Assembly: GCA_030425645.1 (NCBI GenBank)
Contig: JAUHZK010000001.1
Location: 310,001-374,000, forward strand
Direction: 5' to 3'
Length of the DNA stretch: 64,000 nt
DNA from: Gammaproteobacteria bacterium
GTDB taxonomy: Bacteria; Pseudomonadota; Gammaproteobacteria; JAPPPA01
Part shown: positions 38,225 to 49,508 of the stretch, one piece after another
Position numbering within the stretch: position 1 is the stretch's first letter
How the letters are laid out: each line of letters begins with the position of its first letter
Position numbers and translations under genes: made by a program
The notes under the pieces: model-generated
What the model was told of the DNA's origin: nothing
The model's input: the letters and a program-made list of their open reading frames with translations, nothing else
Database searches by the model: none

Positions 38225-39422
38225 TAGTGACCACCTCTAGCGCGACTCCGGCCGGGGCAAAACCGGGGTGGTCAAACAAGTGGCTATTGCGCGCAAAAAT
38301 TTCTGCGCCACGGGCGCCGGTGCCGTATAGCTCTTGGCTGATTAAGGCACAGGGCTGGGTTGTTTGTGGCGTGTATTCACTGACACGGCCTAGGCGTTCT
38401 GAACGCTGGGTTAGATCACTACTTACGGCGCTATAAAGGCTGTTTAAAGCCATCCAGGTATTGCGGTCGGCGCTGCTCATTTGGTCGTCAATTTCAGCCA
38501 GCAACAGGTCGCGTATTTCAATCGCTTGTTGGTGACTGTCGTAGCTTGCAGCGGCGGCTGCTTGGCAGGCGTTGGTCAACGCCGCTGTGCGCAGCAGCTG
38601 ATCTAAGGCCTTGGCATTTTGGGCTTGCGTTTGGCGGCTTGGGGTGTCGTTGTAGCTTGGTGGCTGGGCTTGATAACCCCATGCCTCACGCAGGGCCGAT
38701 ACCGCTTGTAGTGGCGTGGTCACGGTTTCGGTGACTTGCTCAAAAACTGCTAGCAGCTGGCTAGCCATTGCCTTTGGATTCTGTAACTGCTGCGCCTGGC
38801 GGGCGAGGTATAACGACCAATCGAAAGCGCTATTGGCAACGGCTGAAGCACCGCGCAAGGTGCGCGCGGCCTCAAACTGATTAAACCACTCGTTAAGCTG
38901 AGTAATGGCGCTTTGGCGCACAAATTCCGGCTTGTTCTGGACGCTAAATACGTTGGCGAATTCGGCGGCAGCAGCAGCGCTGGCCTCAGAGGCTTGTCGC
39001 TTAACGGCAGCGCGGTTATTGACGGCACCGACTGGGTAGCTAAGCGCCTCGACGGGCAGGAATTCAATCGAAAAGGCGACGTACTCACCTTCTTGGGCAT
39101 TGTATTGCCACTCCGGCAGGCTGGCGGTGACGCATTGCGCTGGCGGCAACCAAGGCAATTCTAGGCGGCCGCTGCCGCGCTCTTTAAAGACGGCCAATAA
39201 GGCGTCGCGCTGGCTTAACACGTCAGCGCCAGATAGCCAGCCGTTAACGCGGATAATGCCGTCGCGTTCGGTTAGATCTTCAAAGCCTGGCAAACGACGC
39301 AAGGCGAACTCATGCACCACACGTAGGCGGCCAGCAGCGTTGCTACTACGGCTGCACTCAAAGCGCACGCCTCTATACGAAGGCAGGCGGGTGTCTGGCC
39401 AGACGTTACTGCTTAGGGTCAT
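38217..39422 (-). CDS. DNA circularization-type protein (Mu gpN)
   Basis: SYRGVRFECSRSSNAAGRLRVVHEFALRRLPGFEDLT. Confidence 0.85.
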   Translation of the reverse strand: MTLSSNVWPDTRLPSYRGVRFECSRSSNAAGRLRVVHEFALRRLPGFEDLTERDGIIRVNGWLSGADVLSQRDALLAVFKERGSGRLELPWLPPAQCVTASLPEWQYNAQEGEYVAFSIEFLPVEALSYPVGAVNNRAAVKRQASEASAAAAAEFANVFSVQNKPEFVRQSAITQLNEWFNQFEAARTLRGASAVANSAFDWSLYLARQAQQLQNPKAMASQLLAVFEQVTETVTTPLQAVSALREAWGYQAQPPSYNDTPSRQTQAQNAKALDQLLRTAALTNACQAAAAASYDSHQQAIEIRDLLLAEIDDQMSSADRNTWMALNSLYSAVSSDLTQRSERLGRVSEYTPQTTQPCALISQELYGTGARGAEIFARNSHLFDHPGFAPAGVALEVVTND

Positions 39423-40873
39423 TAATCGGCCCCCACATTAGTGCGGCCGGTGTTCACCTGCAGCTTGGTTTTGCCGTCGGTTTCTATGCTGGTGACTTTG
39501 GCGGCGCTATTAGCGTCGGTGCTGACCTCGATGCGGATAGTGGAGTCACCGTTGGGCGCGGCGTTGTTACCCTCGTAGCGGAATGATTCTAAGCCTAGGC
39601 CGTCGGCAAAGATGGCGCTAGTTAGACGCCGGTCGACGTCTGAAAATTGGCTTAAAACGCCTTTTAAACCTTCTTGACGGCTGCGCTTTTCAAGCTCTGA
39701 TAGCTCTGAATTAATTGCTGCAAACGCATCTCTTGCGCCGTTCGTTCCCAGAATATTGTCGGCTATTTTGGTTACCGTATCGCCTGTGCTTGCCAATTGC
39801 TGATTGGTAATTTGGGCAGCGCGTGCGCTGTCTGCTAATAAGGTGGCGCCGTCGCCATTGGCGTTATAGAAGTCGTTAATACTGTCGATAGCGCCATCGT
39901 TTTGCCTGAACTCGGCGATTGCCGCACTAAATGCCCTAGTCGACTCTGCATCAAATACCTGGCTTAGCTGGGTTGACTTGCCGCCACTGGCTTGGATGAT
40001 CTCGACAAGCAACTCATTAATCGGACGCATGATCTCTTCGCCACGCTTCAGCGCTTCGGTGTCGAAGACCTGTATGCCACCTTTTTCTTGCAGCAGTTTG
40101 ACTTTGTCAGCATCGCCTAACGTTCTAAGCAGTGCCTCAAACGCTGTAGTGGCTTGCTCTGAGCTACCAACACCAGCACGGATTAACTGCAAGGCCGCAC
40201 CCATTTCACGGATGGCAGGAATGCCGGTGCGGCCCATTTTGGCGTAGGCAGCAACGTTACGTTCGCCCAGCTGGGCCAAATTCGCCAAAGTAAAGCTGCC
40301 TGCTTTACCTTGGTTAATCAAAATATCTAGAGCCGAGTTGACTTCTTCTTTGGTGGTAAGTCCAAACTTTTTAAATTGTGCAGTTAAGGCGCCAACGCTG
40401 GCGCCTTCGGCACCGGCGGCCTGGATGGCTAGCGCCATATTGCGAGCTTGCTCGCGGGCAAAATCGAGGTCGCCGGTTTTTTCGACAATCTCGCTGACGG
40501 CGTCGAGCAGCTGCTTGCTGTCGATGTTGATGTCGTCAGCGCTGGCCGTGTCGAACAGCTGATTTTTTAACTGCCGAATTTCTGCTGGGCTGCGACCGCT
40601 TTGAATACCTAAACGCTCGAAGCGTTCTTCAGCCTCTAATAAGTTACCGCTGACTTTTGCGGAACTAAAGCCAGCGCCTAATAGACCGGCGCCACCAGCA
40701 AATTTGCCGAAGCCTTTAAAGCTGCGGCCGGTGGCGGCTAGGTCTTTGCGCATGCGCCGTAGGTTCTGCTGGGTGTTTTTAGCAAACCGTTTTTGGGCGC
40801 GGCCGTTTTTCTTGGTTTGCTGCTCAAAGCTGCCACCCAAGTTGACCTGAATATTGTATTCCTGATCGGCCAT
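39422..40873 (-). CDS. Tail tape measure protein
   Basis: RMRKDLAATGRSFKGFGKFAGGAGLLGAG, TMP-type SALDILINQGKAGSFTLANLAQLGE; position after chaperone. Confidence 0.85.
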   Translation of the reverse strand: MADQEYNIQVNLGGSFEQQTKKNGRAQKRFAKNTQQNLRRMRKDLAATGRSFKGFGKFAGGAGLLGAGFSSAKVSGNLLEAEERFERLGIQSGRSPAEIRQLKNQLFDTASADDINIDSKQLLDAVSEIVEKTGDLDFAREQARNMALAIQAAGAEGASVGALTAQFKKFGLTTKEEVNSALDILINQGKAGSFTLANLAQLGERNVAAYAKMGRTGIPAIREMGAALQLIRAGVGSSEQATTAFEALLRTLGDADKVKLLQEKGGIQVFDTEALKRGEEIMRPINELLVEIIQASGGKSTQLSQVFDAESTRAFSAAIAEFRQNDGAIDSINDFYNANGDGATLLADSARAAQITNQQLASTGDTVTKIADNILGTNGARDAFAAINSELSELEKRSRQEGLKGVLSQFSDVDRRLTSAIFADGLGLESFRYEGNNAAPNGDSTIRIEVSTDANSAAKVTSIETDGKTKLQVNTGRTNVGAD

Positions 40874-41013
40874 TAGTGATGGTTGCGGGCGGCCTTAGCT
40901 GCGGCGCGTTTGCGGACTTGGATAATATGGTCGGCTTGCATGGATAGCGGCTCGAATAGAGACTCAGGCATCTGTAATGACTGGGCCGGTGTCAGGCCCG
41001 TTAGCTGCTGCAT
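40873..41013 (-). CDS. Tail assembly chaperone frameshift (GT) segment, 46 codons from internal ATG
   Basis: MQQLTGLTPAQSLQMPESLFEPLSMQADHIIQVRKRAAAKAARNHH; below the ORF-track cutoff. Stop overlaps the tape measure start. Confidence 0.75.
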   Translation of the reverse strand: MQQLTGLTPAQSLQMPESLFEPLSMQADHIIQVRKRAAAKAARNHH

Positions 41014-41443
41014 TACTGTTAACCTTGGCAGCTGGTTTAGCAGCCGCAGGGCACGTTCGCCCCCGTATCCTTAATCGCTTTTGCGCCTCGTCGATTTTCT
41101 CTTCGTCGACTTCGTAGAGTTTGCCCAGCACAGTGGCTGGAATGCTTGGGCTAGCCAGTTCTGGCAGCGTGCCAGTGCTATCGCTGAGTTTGACAATTTG
41201 GGCGTGCAGTAAATGCCGGTTAAATAGGCATTCGCTGGGTAAACGTAACCAAGCGCCCTCTGGCTCGCCGGATGCTTGGCAGTAGGTGCCGACCTCGGCT
41301 GCGAGTTCGGCACTATCCTTGTCGGCTTTGGTGGCTTCGCGCAGCTCGATGGTGTCGTAGCGTGCATTTAGGACGCTGCTGTCGCCTTGGGTAACGGCGA
41401 TGCCACGTTCAAGCTTGACGACTTCGGTTAGTGGTTCGTACAT
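40964..41443 (-). CDS. Tail assembly chaperone (Mu gp41-like)
   Basis: Between tail tube and tape measure; overlaps the second frame with a slippery site at 41057-41064. Confidence 0.8.
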   Translation of the reverse strand: MYEPLTEVVKLERGIAVTQGDSSVLNARYDTIELREATKADKDSAELAAEVGTYCQASGEPEGAWLRLPSECLFNRHLLHAQIVKLSDSTGTLPELASPSIPATVLGKLYEVDEEKIDEAQKRLRIRGRTCPAAAKPAAKVNSNAAANGPDTGPVITDA

Positions 41444-41472
41444 GCGTTGTTACTCGCACCCTCTCCCCTAAA

Positions 41473-41495
41473 CCCTCTCCCTAGTAGGGAGAGGG
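41473..41495. repeat. 10-bp-stem palindrome between tail tube and chaperone genes
   Basis: CCCTCTCCCT-agt-AGGGAGAGGG. Confidence 0.8.
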
Positions 41496-41510
41496 GAATA
41501 AGGCATGGGG

Positions 41511-41873
41511 TTATAGCTGGATAGGGTCGCCGCCTAGGGTGTAGGTGACGGTTAGATAGTCGTCACCTAGGTCGCCACCACTGGCGAAGGTGCAGCCTGG
41601 GCAAAGTACGCGAACACCGCTAGAGGCGACTAAGGTGATGGGCTCGTTGGCCACGTCACGCAGATTCTTAGCCGTATCAAGGCTTTTATTGAGTAGCGCT
41701 ACTTGTAGCTGCGGCACCACGGGGCGCGTTTTTTGGCCATGTTGGCCATTGCCTGCCGGGAGCGGTTCACTCTCTTTGCCTGCCCAGTTGTTGATCTTGG
41801 TGTCGTCTGGGTTGACACCAATGCTCTGGCCACGTAATTCGATTGCGATAAAACTGAGTACTTCTAAAGCCAT
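41511..41873 (-). CDS. Tail tube protein (Mu gpM)
   Basis: Position between sheath and chaperone; size 120 aa. Confidence 0.8.
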   Translation of the reverse strand: MALEVLSFIAIELRGQSIGVNPDDTKINNWAGKESEPLPAGNGQHGQKTRPVVPQLQVALLNKSLDTAKNLRDVANEPITLVASSGVRVLCPGCTFASGGDLGDDYLTVTYTLGGDPIQL

Positions 41874-41918: not shown

Positions 41919-43433
41919 CTAGCGGACAAAGGCCGCATTGGTACCGACAAACCGCAGTTGGTTCATGGTGTTTGGCTGTTGTTCTGTATCGAGGCGATTG
42001 GGATCTTCGCTATTGCGCAGCACAATCAGCTGGTCTTTGTAATGGCTAAGGTTTTCCATAATTCCGGCGCTAACAAACTTCTGGTAGTGACCAATTAGCC
42101 AGCTGCGCATCCGCTCTGGCGTCATTACTGGGCCTGCCTCTGGGCCAAAGCTGTCGCCGTCTTCGGCTAACTTAAAACCACGCAGCTCGCGGCGGATGTC
42201 GTTGTTCTGGCTCCAACGCCAGAAACTCAACACCTCAACGGTGTTTAGGTCTTGGTAGGCGGTGTCTAGGGCGCCGACTTCGTTTTCGGTGTACATGGTG
42301 ACCATGCGTTCGATACGGACTAGGCCAGCCGCGTCAACGTTAAAGGTGCTGACACCGGCTGCTAACAGCTGGTGGCGCTCGGTTTCACTAAACCGATGGT
42401 TGCTATTAGGCGGTAAGGTTGAGCGCAGTGGCAGGCCTTCAAAGGCTACAGCCGGGTCTTTATTGGCGCTGGCCTCGATGGCTGAAGCGACATCGGCAGC
42501 AATGACAAAGTGCGGTGTGGCACTGCCTGCAATGCCTAGCGCAGCCACTTGGTGGCTGTTGCGGCCGTTATTGGCCCAGGCGATTAGGTCAGCAGCGGTG
42601 GCACCGGTGTCGGTATTGCCGACGGCAAAAATGGCACGGCCGTCTCGCTGGCTGTTGTATTGCCAGCGGCGGTCGAGTTCGGCTTCTAGGGTGCGCAGGT
42701 TGGCTTCGTCTAAATACGGGCTCACCAGCTTGGTCATGTGGTCGTCTTCAGTGGCGGCAAAGGCGGCGCTGATGTCTGGGTTGCCAACACTAATGACCGG
42801 CTGCGTGGTGATAACGGTTAGGCCTGCTGCGTCTGGCTCATTACGGCCAAGGTCTAAGCCTTGGTTAATGGTGATTTGGTTGGCGGTAGCGCCGACCCAT
42901 TTGGCGGTGAGTACGGCTTTGCTAGTGTCAGCACCGTCAACCGCTGCAGTGACGTTTAGGTTGGGGTTGTCATTCACGGCATCGACAAAGCTTTGCGCGA
43001 GGGTGTCGCCGGTGTCGTCGGCATTAACGGCAATACGCACGCGGCCGTTGAGGCTGGTGGCACCGATATAGCGCACAAACTCGCCAATGCTTGGGCCTTC
43101 GACAGGATCGTCGATATTGAATTGCACTTCCCATTGGCTGGCGCTGCCGGCGTCGTCATCTAGGGCGATGGCATAAACCGGCAGGTTGCCTGCGTTGCGC
43201 AATGCGGCCAGCAACATGCTGGCCAATAGACTACCGGCACCCGCTAGCGCCACGGCTTGGGTGTTGCTGGTAATTAGTTGACGAAAACCACGGGCAATCG
43301 GCGCGCTGGCCAAGGGCTGGCCAATCACATTAATGCTGCGAGGCATGCCGGTCAGACCGCGCACGGCGTTGCGTGGGTCAAACTGAATGGCGGCGCCGGG
43401 TACTAGGGTAATGGGGATGCTGGTTAATGCCAT
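41919..43433 (-). CDS. Tail sheath protein (Mu gpL)
   Basis: 504 aa; FDPRNAVRGLTGMPRSINVIGQ..; conserved position. Confidence 0.9.
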   Translation of the reverse strand: MALTSIPITLVPGAAIQFDPRNAVRGLTGMPRSINVIGQPLASAPIARGFRQLITSNTQAVALAGAGSLLASMLLAALRNAGNLPVYAIALDDDAGSASQWEVQFNIDDPVEGPSIGEFVRYIGATSLNGRVRIAVNADDTGDTLAQSFVDAVNDNPNLNVTAAVDGADTSKAVLTAKWVGATANQITINQGLDLGRNEPDAAGLTVITTQPVISVGNPDISAAFAATEDDHMTKLVSPYLDEANLRTLEAELDRRWQYNSQRDGRAIFAVGNTDTGATAADLIAWANNGRNSHQVAALGIAGSATPHFVIAADVASAIEASANKDPAVAFEGLPLRSTLPPNSNHRFSETERHQLLAAGVSTFNVDAAGLVRIERMVTMYTENEVGALDTAYQDLNTVEVLSFWRWSQNNDIRRELRGFKLAEDGDSFGPEAGPVMTPERMRSWLIGHYQKFVSAGIMENLSHYKDQLIVLRNSEDPNRLDTEQQPNTMNQLRFVGTNAAFVR

Positions 43434-44864: not shown

Positions 44865-46040
44865 TTATAGAGCCAGCCTAAAGTGTGGCAGCCAGCGGTG
44901 CACCGGCGCATTGTCGTAACGGCTGTTAAACCAAACGTCGGCTTGACGGATATTGCCACGTGGGCCTTCGATCCGGCCGATGTCGTTATCTACCACGCCT
45001 TCCATTGCATAACCGACTTCGGTGGGCGTACCCAAAATAAAGCCGATGGTGATTTGGTTGCCCGCCACGCTAACGTTGTTAATGGTTGCGCCGGTGAGCG
45101 TAAAGCCGTGATTGGCCACCGCTGTGACGAGGTTCGTATCAACCTCTAAATCACCCCAATTATTGACCGTTAGCACCACATTGTTGCCGTTAACCTGGCC
45201 ACTAATGTCTGGCAGCGGGAACCGGGCGATGTCCGCCATGTAATGGGCAAAGCTTTCGCCGATTTGGCGATTGGCGTAGCTCTCAAAGTGAATGCCGTCA
45301 TTCGGCCACGGCGCGTAGTGGTAGTAACTAAAGGCAAGACGCACGTAAGGGTTGGCTTTGGCTAGCTCTAGCTGGGCCTGTGGCACCTCTGAGGTGGTGG
45401 TGCCGATTTGGGTTAAGAAATTTTTAGTCCAGGCACCGCACTGGGTAATCACCAGCAAAGGCTTGCTGGTTTGACCGGTAATGGCGGTTATGCGGCGTTG
45501 GTAAGACTCGAGCAGCGTTTCTAGCGCGCTGAAGTGTGCGGCTAGAGTTTTGTTGCGATCGTTATACCCCTGGCTCAAAAAGATTGCCGGCACCACTAGT
45601 TTTGGGTAGGTTTCTTTTGCTTTGGCAATGGCGTCCATTTGGTTTTCAAAGGCGTTGCTGCCTTCTTGCATGTCATCAATGGACGTACCACCAACACCAC
45701 CAGCGGCAAAAATCATGGGCGGTTTATGGCCCTTATCGCGCATGGTTTCAGCAAAGCCACTGGCCCACGTTTCGCCAAACCCGTAGTTCAACGCGCCGGT
45801 GTTTTGTATCTCTAGCAATGGCACCAGATTACCCGGGTTAGGGACTCGGGCGCCGCCATGTTCAGGGTCTAGTCGCACCCCATTCTCAAACATAAAGCTA
45901 TTAGCCGGGCTAGTTGTACTTAGCAGCGGTAGCGACGATGTGCCGCCGCTGTTGGATTGTCCCGCGAACAGGTAAAACTCTGCGTAGCCAGTTAGGTCTC
46001 GAATAATTGGGCCGTTGCTAATCATGCTGCCATGTTCCAT
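44865..46040 (-). CDS. SGNH/sialate-O-acetylesterase-like hydrolase
   Basis: LFAGQSNSGG (block I), FAAGGVGGTSI, DGIHF catalytic Asp/His. Confidence 0.82.
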   Translation of the reverse strand: MEHGSMISNGPIIRDLTGYAEFYLFAGQSNSGGTSSLPLLSTTSPANSFMFENGVRLDPEHGGARVPNPGNLVPLLEIQNTGALNYGFGETWASGFAETMRDKGHKPPMIFAAGGVGGTSIDDMQEGSNAFENQMDAIAKAKETYPKLVVPAIFLSQGYNDRNKTLAAHFSALETLLESYQRRITAITGQTSKPLLVITQCGAWTKNFLTQIGTTTSEVPQAQLELAKANPYVRLAFSYYHYAPWPNDGIHFESYANRQIGESFAHYMADIARFPLPDISGQVNGNNVVLTVNNWGDLEVDTNLVTAVANHGFTLTGATINNVSVAGNQITIGFILGTPTEVGYAMEGVVDNDIGRIEGPRGNIRQADVWFNSRYDNAPVHRWLPHFRLAL

Positions 46041-46852
46041 AGGCCAACGGTGTTGCCGTCGTTTTCAAAGGTGAAGCCGGTACCGGTATCAGATGGGGTA
46101 ATGCCGGGCCAGCGCGAAACGTCAGACAGGCGGCCCGCTCGTAAGAGACCGCAGAAAGGATTGGGGGCTGGCGCGGCATAATCGACGCCATGCGCGCGGC
46201 CCATGTAGAAATGCGTTGGTGCCGTGACTTGGCGCAAACTGATGTTATTAGAAGTGCCGATATGATTTCCGTCTAAGTACAGCAGGAAGTTGTCGCCGTC
46301 ATAACAGACCTGAAAGACATAGTCCTGTCCTTCGTTCAGCGGGTTTGGGATATTTCCCACCGGGCCTTGGCGGTCAAAAGTGCCGTCAGCTTCGCGCCAG
46401 CCAACGTAGGGGCTGTTATTGACGTCGAGGCCGATCACCCAGCTTGCGTCAGGATTTTGGTCTTCGCGGTTCTCTGTGTGGGTATGCCATTCACCGGCTA
46501 GCACTTGGTCGGTGCCATTGGCCGCGCCGGCTTTAAATTTGACCTCGATGGTGAAGTTACCATTGGTCATGGCTTTGTCGGTGGTTAAGCCGTTGCTGTC
46601 AGCCCCCCGGTTAGTGCAGTCAAACTGCCATGCACCAGAGCCGCCACCGGGCGGACTGTCGACAAATACAGGGGCTGGCGACCCTACAAGCCGCAGATGG
46701 TTGCCGTGACCGCTTGTGTCTCTCAAGGCGTTGTTATTGCCAGAGCCGCCGCCATTCATTTCCAAATTGGCAAGGCGCGCCTCTTGGCGTTCAATGATGT
46801 CGCACAGCGCCTCATTGTCTAGTTCAACCAAGCAAGCAGGAACTTTTGCCAT
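46022..46852 (-). CDS. LamG/ConA-like lectin-domain virion protein
   Basis: GNFTIEVKFKAG..DNFLLYLDGNHIGTSNNISLRQ..FYMGRAHG. Confidence 0.8.
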   Translation of the reverse strand: MAKVPACLVELDNEALCDIIERQEARLANLEMNGGGSGNNNALRDTSGHGNHLRLVGSPAPVFVDSPPGGGSGAWQFDCTNRGADSNGLTTDKAMTNGNFTIEVKFKAGAANGTDQVLAGEWHTHTENREDQNPDASWVIGLDVNNSPYVGWREADGTFDRQGPVGNIPNPLNEGQDYVFQVCYDGDNFLLYLDGNHIGTSNNISLRQVTAPTHFYMGRAHGVDYAAPAPNPFCGLLRAGRLSDVSRWPGITPSDTGTGFTFENDGNTVGLWNMAA

Positions 46853-46854
46853 TA

Positions 46855-49158
46855 TTAATTACCCTTGGTTTGCAGGTGCCAGCGATAGCCCGCTTTAGCC
46901 CGCTCATTAAAGATGGCTAAGGAGCCGTTTTGTGTGATGTCGCCAAGCTGATCGGTGTTGCCTAGGGAGGCGTTGGTGATGATTTCGGTGGGAGTGTCTA
47001 GCGCGACCTGAACATGGCCATCTTCTTCGGCAGTGCCGTTGTAGTCACGCAGCACGATAGTGCCAGTGCCTAATTCTCCTAGCGCCTGTTCATTGGCGAG
47101 GCTGCGCTGTTCGTTGTCGTTAATTTGATCTAGTAGAGCTTGGTCAACGCCGCCGCCGGATGCACCCAAGAATGTGCCGAACTCGGCTGGCTTAGCCAGT
47201 ATGACCAACATGACGGTAGTGGCGCGTGGGCGGTTATCAATAATGCCCAGCTGGCTGTCGGTTTGATAGGTGCCATCGGCAACGCCTTGCGACCCAGCAA
47301 ACGCGGCGGCCCCAGACGCTAGTGTGACGCTGTGCGTGTGGGCTAGGTTGTGGCTGTCTTGGCCAATAATGTCGCCGACCACTCGGCCTGGGCCTTTACC
47401 AACTAGGAATAAGTCGCCTTCGGGTAGGTTAAAGGTGGTGCTGCCGTCGCCAGCGCCCCAAGTGTCGCCGATTTCCGCATAAAGGCCCGCGTATTCGACC
47501 CGTGACACTGCTTTGCGGGCGCCCGGCTCTAACTCAATGGTGCCGGGCGGCGCGATTGGGCCACCCCAGCTGAAGATAAAGCCGGGTTTAATGCCGACCT
47601 CTGGAATGGCACCACCTTCGGCTATCAGCACCCATTCAGCATTTTGCTTATTGGGGGTAACGCCTTGGTTATTGTCAACTGTGCTGCGCCAGCTGCTGCC
47701 ACCAAAGAAGACGCCATCTTTTTTGTTGTAGATTGCGTCAGGGTCGTAAACGTCACGCCAATTTATGCCCGGCGAGCCGTCACTAATGGTAATGCTTTGG
47801 GTGCTGGTGCTGACGGTGTGGGTGCCGTCGCCGTTGTCGGTGAGCGTTGGGGTTTCGCCGTCGGCACCGGCGTCACCTTGGGCGCCGTCGCTAATGGTAA
47901 TACTTTGCGTGCTAGTGGCGACGGTATGGGTGCCGTCGCCATTGTCGGTGAGGCTTGGGGTTTCGCCGTCGGCACCGGTGTCGCCTTGGGCGCCATCATA
48001 GATGGTAATGCTTTGGCTGCTGGTACTGATGGTGTAACTGCCGTCACCGTTGTCGGTTAGCGTTGGGGCTTGGCCTTCTGGGCCTTGGGCGCCGTCGCTA
48101 ATGGTGATGCTTTGGCTGCTGGTGCTGACAGTGTAGCTACCGTCGCCGTTGTCGGTCAGGGTTGGGGTTTCGCCATCTTGGCCACTGGGGCCGACTAGGC
48201 TTTGAATTAGTTCCCAGTTGCCGACGTTTTTGCGATAAACGTCGCCATTATGTTGCAGGTATAGGTCGTCGTCTGCGCCGAGGCTGTTGTCTGGCGTGTT
48301 GCTGCCGTTATACCAGGTGGATCCGTCAAATCCGACCACGCGGCCGTGGTTTTCTTGGCTGCCGTCGGTATACGTGGTGAGCAGGTCGCCTGCCACAATA
48401 TCGAGCGCTTGAATGCCACGGCCAGCTTCACCTTGAACTTGGCCAGCGTTTTGCGTTTGGCCGTTGCTATAGGTGGTGACAAGCTCGCCGTCGATAATTT
48501 CAACCGACTCTATGCCGCGCCCGTCGCTACCCGCGTCACCTGTAACCTTGCCGACGTTTTCGCTGCTACCGTCGCTGTAGTAAACAACAAGGTTGCCCGC
48601 AATAATTTCGGTTTGCTGGATGCTGGTGCCGTCTACACCGTCGACGCCGTTTTGACCGGCTGGGCCTACTACTTGCCCTAGATTGTCTTCGACGCCGTCA
48701 CTAAAGGTCACCAGCAGATTGCCGCCGTTGATCTCAAAATTAGATACGTGTCGACCGGGTGCACCAGCCGGGCCTTGCAGGTTGCCAAAGTTGTGCAACT
48801 CGCCATTGCTGAGTTCGATAACAAGGTCGTCGTTCTCGTGGCGGATGTCGACAATGCCAACACCGTGCTCGCCGTCTTGGCCGCTGGCGCCAACAACTTG
48901 GCCGAGGTTTTGGGTGCTGCCGTCGGTGAAGCTTAGCCAGAGCTGGCCGTCGGGCGTGATAGCGCCGTCAACAATGCCACGGCCATCTAGGCCGTTGCTA
49001 CCATCAGCGCCGGGTTGACCTGCAACCGTGCCGACCGCTTGCGTGGTGCCGTCGTTATAACTTAGAACCAGCTCGCCGCCTTGGATGGTGGCGTTGATAA
49101 TGCCGCGAGCATTGCCGTTGCTTTGGCTATTGCCGCTGTTGCCGACTTCCCAAACCAT
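46855..49158 (-). CDS. Collagen-like/repeat fibre with C-terminal tail-collar domain
   Basis: GPAGAPG-type triplets; ~38-aa EIxxGxLxxTYSDG repeats; PGTIELEPG..YAGLYAEIGDTWGAGDGSTTFNLP collar domain. Confidence 0.85.
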   Translation of the reverse strand: MVWEVGNSGNSQSNGNARGIINATIQGGELVLSYNDGTTQAVGTVAGQPGADGSNGLDGRGIVDGAITPDGQLWLSFTDGSTQNLGQVVGASGQDGEHGVGIVDIRHENDDLVIELSNGELHNFGNLQGPAGAPGRHVSNFEINGGNLLVTFSDGVEDNLGQVVGPAGQNGVDGVDGTSIQQTEIIAGNLVVYYSDGSSENVGKVTGDAGSDGRGIESVEIIDGELVTTYSNGQTQNAGQVQGEAGRGIQALDIVAGDLLTTYTDGSQENHGRVVGFDGSTWYNGSNTPDNSLGADDDLYLQHNGDVYRKNVGNWELIQSLVGPSGQDGETPTLTDNGDGSYTVSTSSQSITISDGAQGPEGQAPTLTDNGDGSYTISTSSQSITIYDGAQGDTGADGETPSLTDNGDGTHTVATSTQSITISDGAQGDAGADGETPTLTDNGDGTHTVSTSTQSITISDGSPGINWRDVYDPDAIYNKKDGVFFGGSSWRSTVDNNQGVTPNKQNAEWVLIAEGGAIPEVGIKPGFIFSWGGPIAPPGTIELEPGARKAVSRVEYAGLYAEIGDTWGAGDGSTTFNLPEGDLFLVGKGPGRVVGDIIGQDSHNLAHTHSVTLASGAAAFAGSQGVADGTYQTDSQLGIIDNRPRATTVMLVILAKPAEFGTFLGASGGGVDQALLDQINDNEQRSLANEQALGELGTGTIVLRDYNGTAEEDGHVQVALDTPTEIITNASLGNTDQLGDITQNGSLAIFNERAKAGYRWHLQTKGN
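47770..48180. repeat. Four tandem ~99-108-bp coding repeats in fibre gene
   Basis: PTLTDNGDGSYTVSTSSQSITISDGAQG x4. Confidence 0.85.
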
Positions 49159-49508
49159 TAGATTAATACCTCGATTTCGGCTGAGCCGTCGCCTGCCACA
49201 ATGCTTAGGCGCAGGCCAGTAACGGCTTTGTCTTCGCGTAGGTCGGCTTCGCGTAGGCTGTCTGGCGTGGTGTTACTGATGTCACCTAGTGGCCAGCTGC
49301 GCCAGTTGGCAGTGCCTGCTTTGACGCGGTCTGGATGGCTGGTGGTGTGCTCGACGCGGGCAACGGTGTCGGTACCGGTAATGGTAACGGCAACATTGCC
49401 GCCGCTGAGGTCTTGGTCACGTGGCGGGTGGAACTCTAACGGCTCGCCACCGGCATAAGCGGTGCCGCTATAAAACCAGTTGGTGCCGTCAAAGTTCCAG
49501 CCTGCCAT
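49158..49508 (-). CDS. Hypothetical virion-associated protein
   Basis: 116 aa, abuts the fibre gene. Confidence 0.65.
   Translation of the reverse strand: MAGWNFDGTNWFYSGTAYAGGEPLEFHPPRDQDLSGGNVAVTITGTDTVARVEHTTSHPDRVKAGTANWRSWPLGDISNTTPDSLREADLREDKAVTGLRLSIVAGDGSAEIEVLI

Follow-up and report, generated by a model that had tools for sequence, protein, structure and literature searches.

Does the tail-assembly chaperone gene of a Mu-like prophage, found in the window (the whole 64,000-nucleotide stretch of gammaproteobacterial DNA analysed here), encode a single protein, or is a second, longer product made from it when ribosomes slip back by two bases near its 3' end? Such a -2 programmed frameshift was reportedly described for gp41 of phage Mu by Xu, Hendrix and Duda in 2004. 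The sequence-only reading of this locus relied on the Mu precedent, and the -2 shift of Mu is indeed stated in two publications (PMC5009743; PMC2628397), the first of which, a review, names no users of -2 frameshifting besides Mu, arteriviruses and one Trichomonas virus. In our view the locus is best explained by programmed -2 frameshifting of ribosomes in this chaperone gene, as in Mu, with a probability of roughly 0.88. Since -2 frameshifting in Mu is already known, a frameshift at this locus is a fresh and divergent example of a published mechanism, and the main interest lies in how widely, and in what exact pattern, it is conserved.

A Mu-like contractile tail module

The minus-strand neighbours of the site form a Mu-like contractile tail module with genes for sheath, tube, chaperone, tape measure, baseplate hub and baseplate wedge proteins, in which the chaperone gene sits between those of the tail tube and the tape measure protein (TMP):

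41919..43433, minus strand: tail sheath protein, Mu gpL-like (phrog_165, E=1.5e-113; 33% identity to Mu L over the full length)
41511..41873, minus strand: tail tube protein (phrog_185, E=4e-4; Pfam Tail_tube, E=0.01)
40964..41443, minus strand: 0-frame tail-assembly chaperone, Mu gp41-like, 159 aa (phrog_508, E=4e-4; Pfam Gp41_Mu, E=0.007, which falls below the curated cut-off)
39422..40873, minus strand: tail tape measure protein, 483 aa (phrog_973, E=1e-37; 47% identity to the TMP of phage B23)

The phrog_508 and Gp41_Mu matches, together with an alignment to eight Mu-type gp41 proteins in which R127-G128-R129 (the residues of the slip-site codons) are among the few invariant columns, lead us to regard the 0-frame product as homologous to Mu gp41.

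Two further observations concern the layout of the module. Tail-fibre-like genes (44865-49508), encoding a phrog_4201 fibre and a 767-aa collar/collagen-like protein, are located upstream of the head-tail connector genes and not after the baseplate genes. Between the tail tube and the chaperone gene, at 41472-41510, there is a palindromic repeat, CTCCCTACTAGGGAGAGGG, whose pattern occurs at four places of the genome, this one included, and is absent from the reversed control; it resembles a small dispersed repeat that has inserted itself into the prophage.

The slip site and the second frame

Near the 3' end of the gp41-like gene the octamer GGGGGCGA is present on the minus strand at 41064-41057, where the 0 frame reads CGG|GGG|CGA in the context ..TTA AGG ATA CGG GGG CGA ACG TGC.., with 31 0-frame codons 3' of the slip-site GGG. 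The predicted elements are:

41057..41064, minus strand: putative slippery octamer GG_GGG_CGA (35 of 38 distinct homologous loci have it in this phase; the remaining three have xG_GGG_CGA)
40873..41061, minus strand: predicted -2-frame extension, 62 codons and TAA (GGC GAA CGT ... CAC TAA), with an in-frame TAA upstream and a stop that overlaps the TMP ATG

The site, its phase and the peptide had been given by the sequence-only reading with exact coordinates, and we could confirm them base for base. The -2 frame (equivalently, the +1 frame) is open from the GGC at 41061 to the TAA at 40875-40873, so that a -2 slip would yield a predicted fusion of 190 aa, ...RLRIRG|GERALRLLNQ...ARNHH. The final A of the stop is also the first base of the tape-measure ATG at 40873 (TAATG). 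Since the same frame contains a further TAA at 41073-41071, three codons upstream of the octamer, it can be entered only at or just after the octamer.

The mere presence of GGGGGCGA in the window carries no significance, as one copy was observed against 2.35 expected by chance; its placement does. In the neighbouring tail genes GGG accounts for 2.3% of the Gly codons and CGA for 3.1% of the Arg codons, and with this codon usage the probability of R-G-R being written as xGG GGG CGA is about 6e-5. The chance of the second frame staying open for at least 62 codons is about 0.034.

The arrangement resembles that of the lambda gpG/gpGT type, including P2 E/E+E' with its T_TTT_TTG, in functional logic, in gene order and in the addition of a small C-terminal domain at low level. 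These systems, however, slip by -1 on X_XXY_YYZ, and such a site is not used here: no in-phase lambda/P2-type heptamer followed by a -1-frame extension as far as the tape measure was found in the window, where the -1 frame stops soon after the site and it is the -2/+1 frame that leads to the TMP start. Transcriptional slippage was also set aside, as five Gs would be short for slippage by the polymerase and the CGA would be left unexplained.

Conservation among Mu-type gp41 loci

Mu-type gp41 genes were gathered from phages, plasmids (as plasmid-borne prophages) and chromosomes. G_GGG_CGA was found in the same codon phase in 38 distinct Mu-type gp41 loci, a count that describes elements with the core motif, since the locus-collecting script required GGGGCGA. 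Hosts of these loci include Escherichia, Klebsiella, Vibrio, Photobacterium, Shewanella, Aeromonas, Marinomonas and Actinobacillus, among others. Of the 38, 35 retain GG_GGG_CGA in full; two Xenorhabdus loci (GAG GGG CGA TAG) and one Pantoea persica genome (TCG GGG CGA) lack the octamer's first G. The second frame runs for approximately 45-63 codons and begins with G[D/E]; in loci with a measured TMP start, its end lies no more than about 20 nt away from that start, with the exception of locus L011, for which a doubtful TTG, 41 nt upstream, had been picked as start. A stop of the new frame three codons before the site is found in the window and in five other loci. Searching the phage collection with the whole fusion by tblastn gave no match, and neither did a search of one other genome of the host's order. 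The sequence-only reading had proposed to look among homologues for conservation of both the slippery site and the -2 frame, and in the 38 loci both are present. These comparisons establish the sequence anatomy of the locus and show that site, phase and second frame are deeply conserved.

The claim of the sequence-only reading that the arrangement is of the Mu type is borne out by phage Mu itself, whose tail genes are in the same order and whose gp41 has the identical GGGGGCGA in the same phase (..CAA GAA CGG GGG CGA GTG..) and the same new frame, and likewise lies between tail tube and tape measure with an extension ending at the tape-measure gene. The two loci differ in that identity between the chaperone proteins is only about 25%, the site is followed by a 0-frame tail of 7 codons in Mu and 31 in the window, and the extension comprises 51 and 62 codons, respectively, with marginal similarity. 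Moreover, the Mu TMP ATG is located 17 nt from the extension stop with a Shine-Dalgarno-like AGGA in between, whereas stop and start overlap in the window.

It is correct that the downstream ORF is unannotated, as had been pointed out, but this is nothing unusual: the Mu record, too, gives no separate CDS for the -2-frame piece, and D108 annotates a separate hypothetical gene (41.5). The latter annotation, together with a comparable hypothetical ORF in one E. coli plasmid prophage, would agree with a locus at which no frameshift occurs and a separate small gene is translated from an internal ATG. In the window such an ATG is available at extension codon 17, preceded by AAGG nine bases upstream; the only in-frame ATG starts yield at most 46 aa, which also explains the absence of the second ORF from the ORF track. 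We nevertheless regard a separate gene as highly improbable. The extensions of Mu and of Xenorhabdus locus L046 are without an internal ATG, and in others the ATG is found at scattered positions; the conserved part starts at the slip site, upstream of any start, and the octamer would be left unexplained.

One element deviates in another way. In a Klebsiella plasmid prophage (L033, about position 1038) the octamer is intact and the second frame closes after two codons, through a one-base difference from its relatives; this is probably a broken copy.

Direction of the slip

Slips of -2 and +1 reach the same frame, and their products differ by one glycine. A +1 slip at the same place, from GGG to GGC in the P site, would therefore give a fusion shorter by this residue; the frames are identical in sequence, GGGC allows +1 re-pairing, and the first G of the octamer, missing in Xenorhabdus and P. 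persica, would be irrelevant to it. A column-by-column comparison of the site bears on this question. The codon before GGG is CGG, AGG, TGG or GGG in elements with the full octamer; its first position thus varies between C, A, T and G, and its final base, directly before GGG, is G in all 38 loci. This G is synonymous for Arg at that position and is untranslated in the new frame. Its invariance is accounted for if tRNA-Gly re-pairs two bases upstream, which needs Gs there, whereas a +1 slip does not. The second G upstream, kept in 35 of 38 loci in Arg, Trp or Gly codons, is likewise dispensable for +1. Less can be read from the invariant GGC GA, a stretch that codes in both frames (Gly-Arg in the 0 frame, Gly-Asp/Glu in the new one) and whose conservation could in part reflect this double coding. 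Taken with the -2 direction reported for Mu in the literature, the column pattern favours -2, and we consider a +1 slip improbable. Perfect -2 re-pairing is not universal, as the two Xenorhabdus loci and the P. persica locus are without the first G.

The extension and downstream RNA structure

The extension of the window is the poorest match to the family pattern. It was not matched in a local profile search with the other extensions (1.1 bits, equalled by about a quarter of shuffles). In an ungapped, site-anchored test, which was chosen after the profile search had failed, it reached z=2.1 (p=0.02) with negative log-odds, against z=5-8 for true family members left out in turn; it beat 98% of shuffles and scored best at the -2 frame and register zero among the frames and registers tried. 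With some relatives it has in common TG at positions 21-22 and P at 25 and 32. The tape measures closest to that of the window (43-47% identity) are those of Alteromonadaceae phage B23 and of the prophages in genome G663; these elements have the same CGG GGG CGA, the same new frame and the TG at 21-22, and B23 in addition P25 and P32. Their extensions fit the family pattern clearly, however, and that of the window fits it weakly.

This poor fit, and a 0-frame tail of 31 codons after the site compared with 1-24 in the relatives, might indicate a relic, in which the octamer has been retained while the extension decayed and lost its function. Decay appears quite improbable to us, given that the frame remains open over its 62 codons (a chance of about 0.03, as above) and ends exactly at the TMP start, that the octamer with its rare codons is intact, and that the sheath, tube, TMP and baseplate genes are all open and recognisable.

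Neither in the window (z=0.2) nor in Mu (z about 0.0) is the RNA fold downstream of the site out of the ordinary. Strong hairpins (z about -3) are found approximately 20-30 nt after the slip site in three Vibrionaceae/Shewanella-type elements (L006, 2317-2377; L011, 2339-2399; L034, 1031-1091). In the Xenorhabdus loci L044 and L046, GAG GGG CGA is directly followed by the 0-frame stop TAG, and in L046 a long perfect hairpin starts a few bases after the TAG (fold z=-3.8), making this a possible relaxed -2 site with a possible stimulator. A downstream RNA stimulator as a general part of the system was rejected, because strong structures are present in some Vibrio-type and Xenorhabdus relatives and absent from the window and Mu.

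Proposed mechanism

We infer that ribosomes slip at this site in the host, with a low efficiency. The majority of them would complete the 159-aa chaperone. With GGG in the P site and a slowly decoded CGA in the A site, translation would pause, and a minority of ribosomes might slip back by two bases, the tRNA-Gly re-pairing with the GGG two bases upstream and reading resuming at GGC GAA.... Shifted ribosomes would then end at the TAA that overlaps the tape-measure start, giving the 190-aa fusion. CGA is decoded slowly in E. coli. Among the tRNA genes found in the host, only Arg-ACG can read CGA, in line with slow decoding of this codon and with a stalling role that it may have here. For glycine, genes for Gly-UCC and Gly-GCC were identified from the tRNA loci, and none for Gly-CCC was found among them.

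By analogy with Mu and with lambda gpG/gpGT, from which the roles of short and long forms are taken (PMC5009743), the short form would coat the tape measure and the rare long form would recruit tail-tube subunits. Translation of the tape measure may also be fed by ribosomes that finish the fusion at TAATG, since no Shine-Dalgarno-like sequence was found 4-12 nt from the tape-measure ATG.

A possibly fixed -2 site and changed shift types in Mu-like tails

With the Mu octamer retained in some 38 distinct elements, including the divergent one of the window, there is support for regarding Mu as representative of a conserved class. The natural site variants could serve in tests of the mechanism, and annotators gain a simple rule for locating the missing long form of the tail chaperone. 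The chances seem to us evenly balanced that a single -2 site, GG_GGG_CGA, is fixed in Mu-type tails throughout gammaproteobacterial hosts, with no variation in the base left free by both frames (the third of the upstream codon), while related Mu-like tails have switched to -1 and Xenorhabdus has relaxed the site to AG_GGG_CGA with a 0-frame stop directly after it and a strong downstream hairpin in the one that was folded (L046). If this is true, comparing natural variants would make it possible to test both the direction of the rare -2 slip and what stimulates it.

Relatives without the core motif have canonical -1 sites (G_GGA_AAC, G_GGA_AAG, T_TTT_TTG), apart from KS10 and TJ1. The two host prophages L018 and L019 (genomes G132 and G056) have G_GGA_AAC and G_GGA_AAG, and the more distant Mu-type phages PY223 and YPCBV-1 have T_TTT_TTG. 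From L018, L019, L009 and L010, all on canonical -1 sites, it follows that the type of shift has changed within Mu-like tails.

Phage KS10 is reported in the literature to lack a frameshift site. The +1/-2 frame of its chaperone gene (L013, 2101-2704) is open to the tape measure, and the second-frame peptide resembles that of TJ1 (L014, 2087-2751) in the pattern ARLQxW..LSLALxCS..SL..xP. Both phages, the two sequences of this kind that were found, have in common an identical GGGCCAGGCTGCAGA block at which a change of frame could take place and which may represent a different, undescribed shift site.
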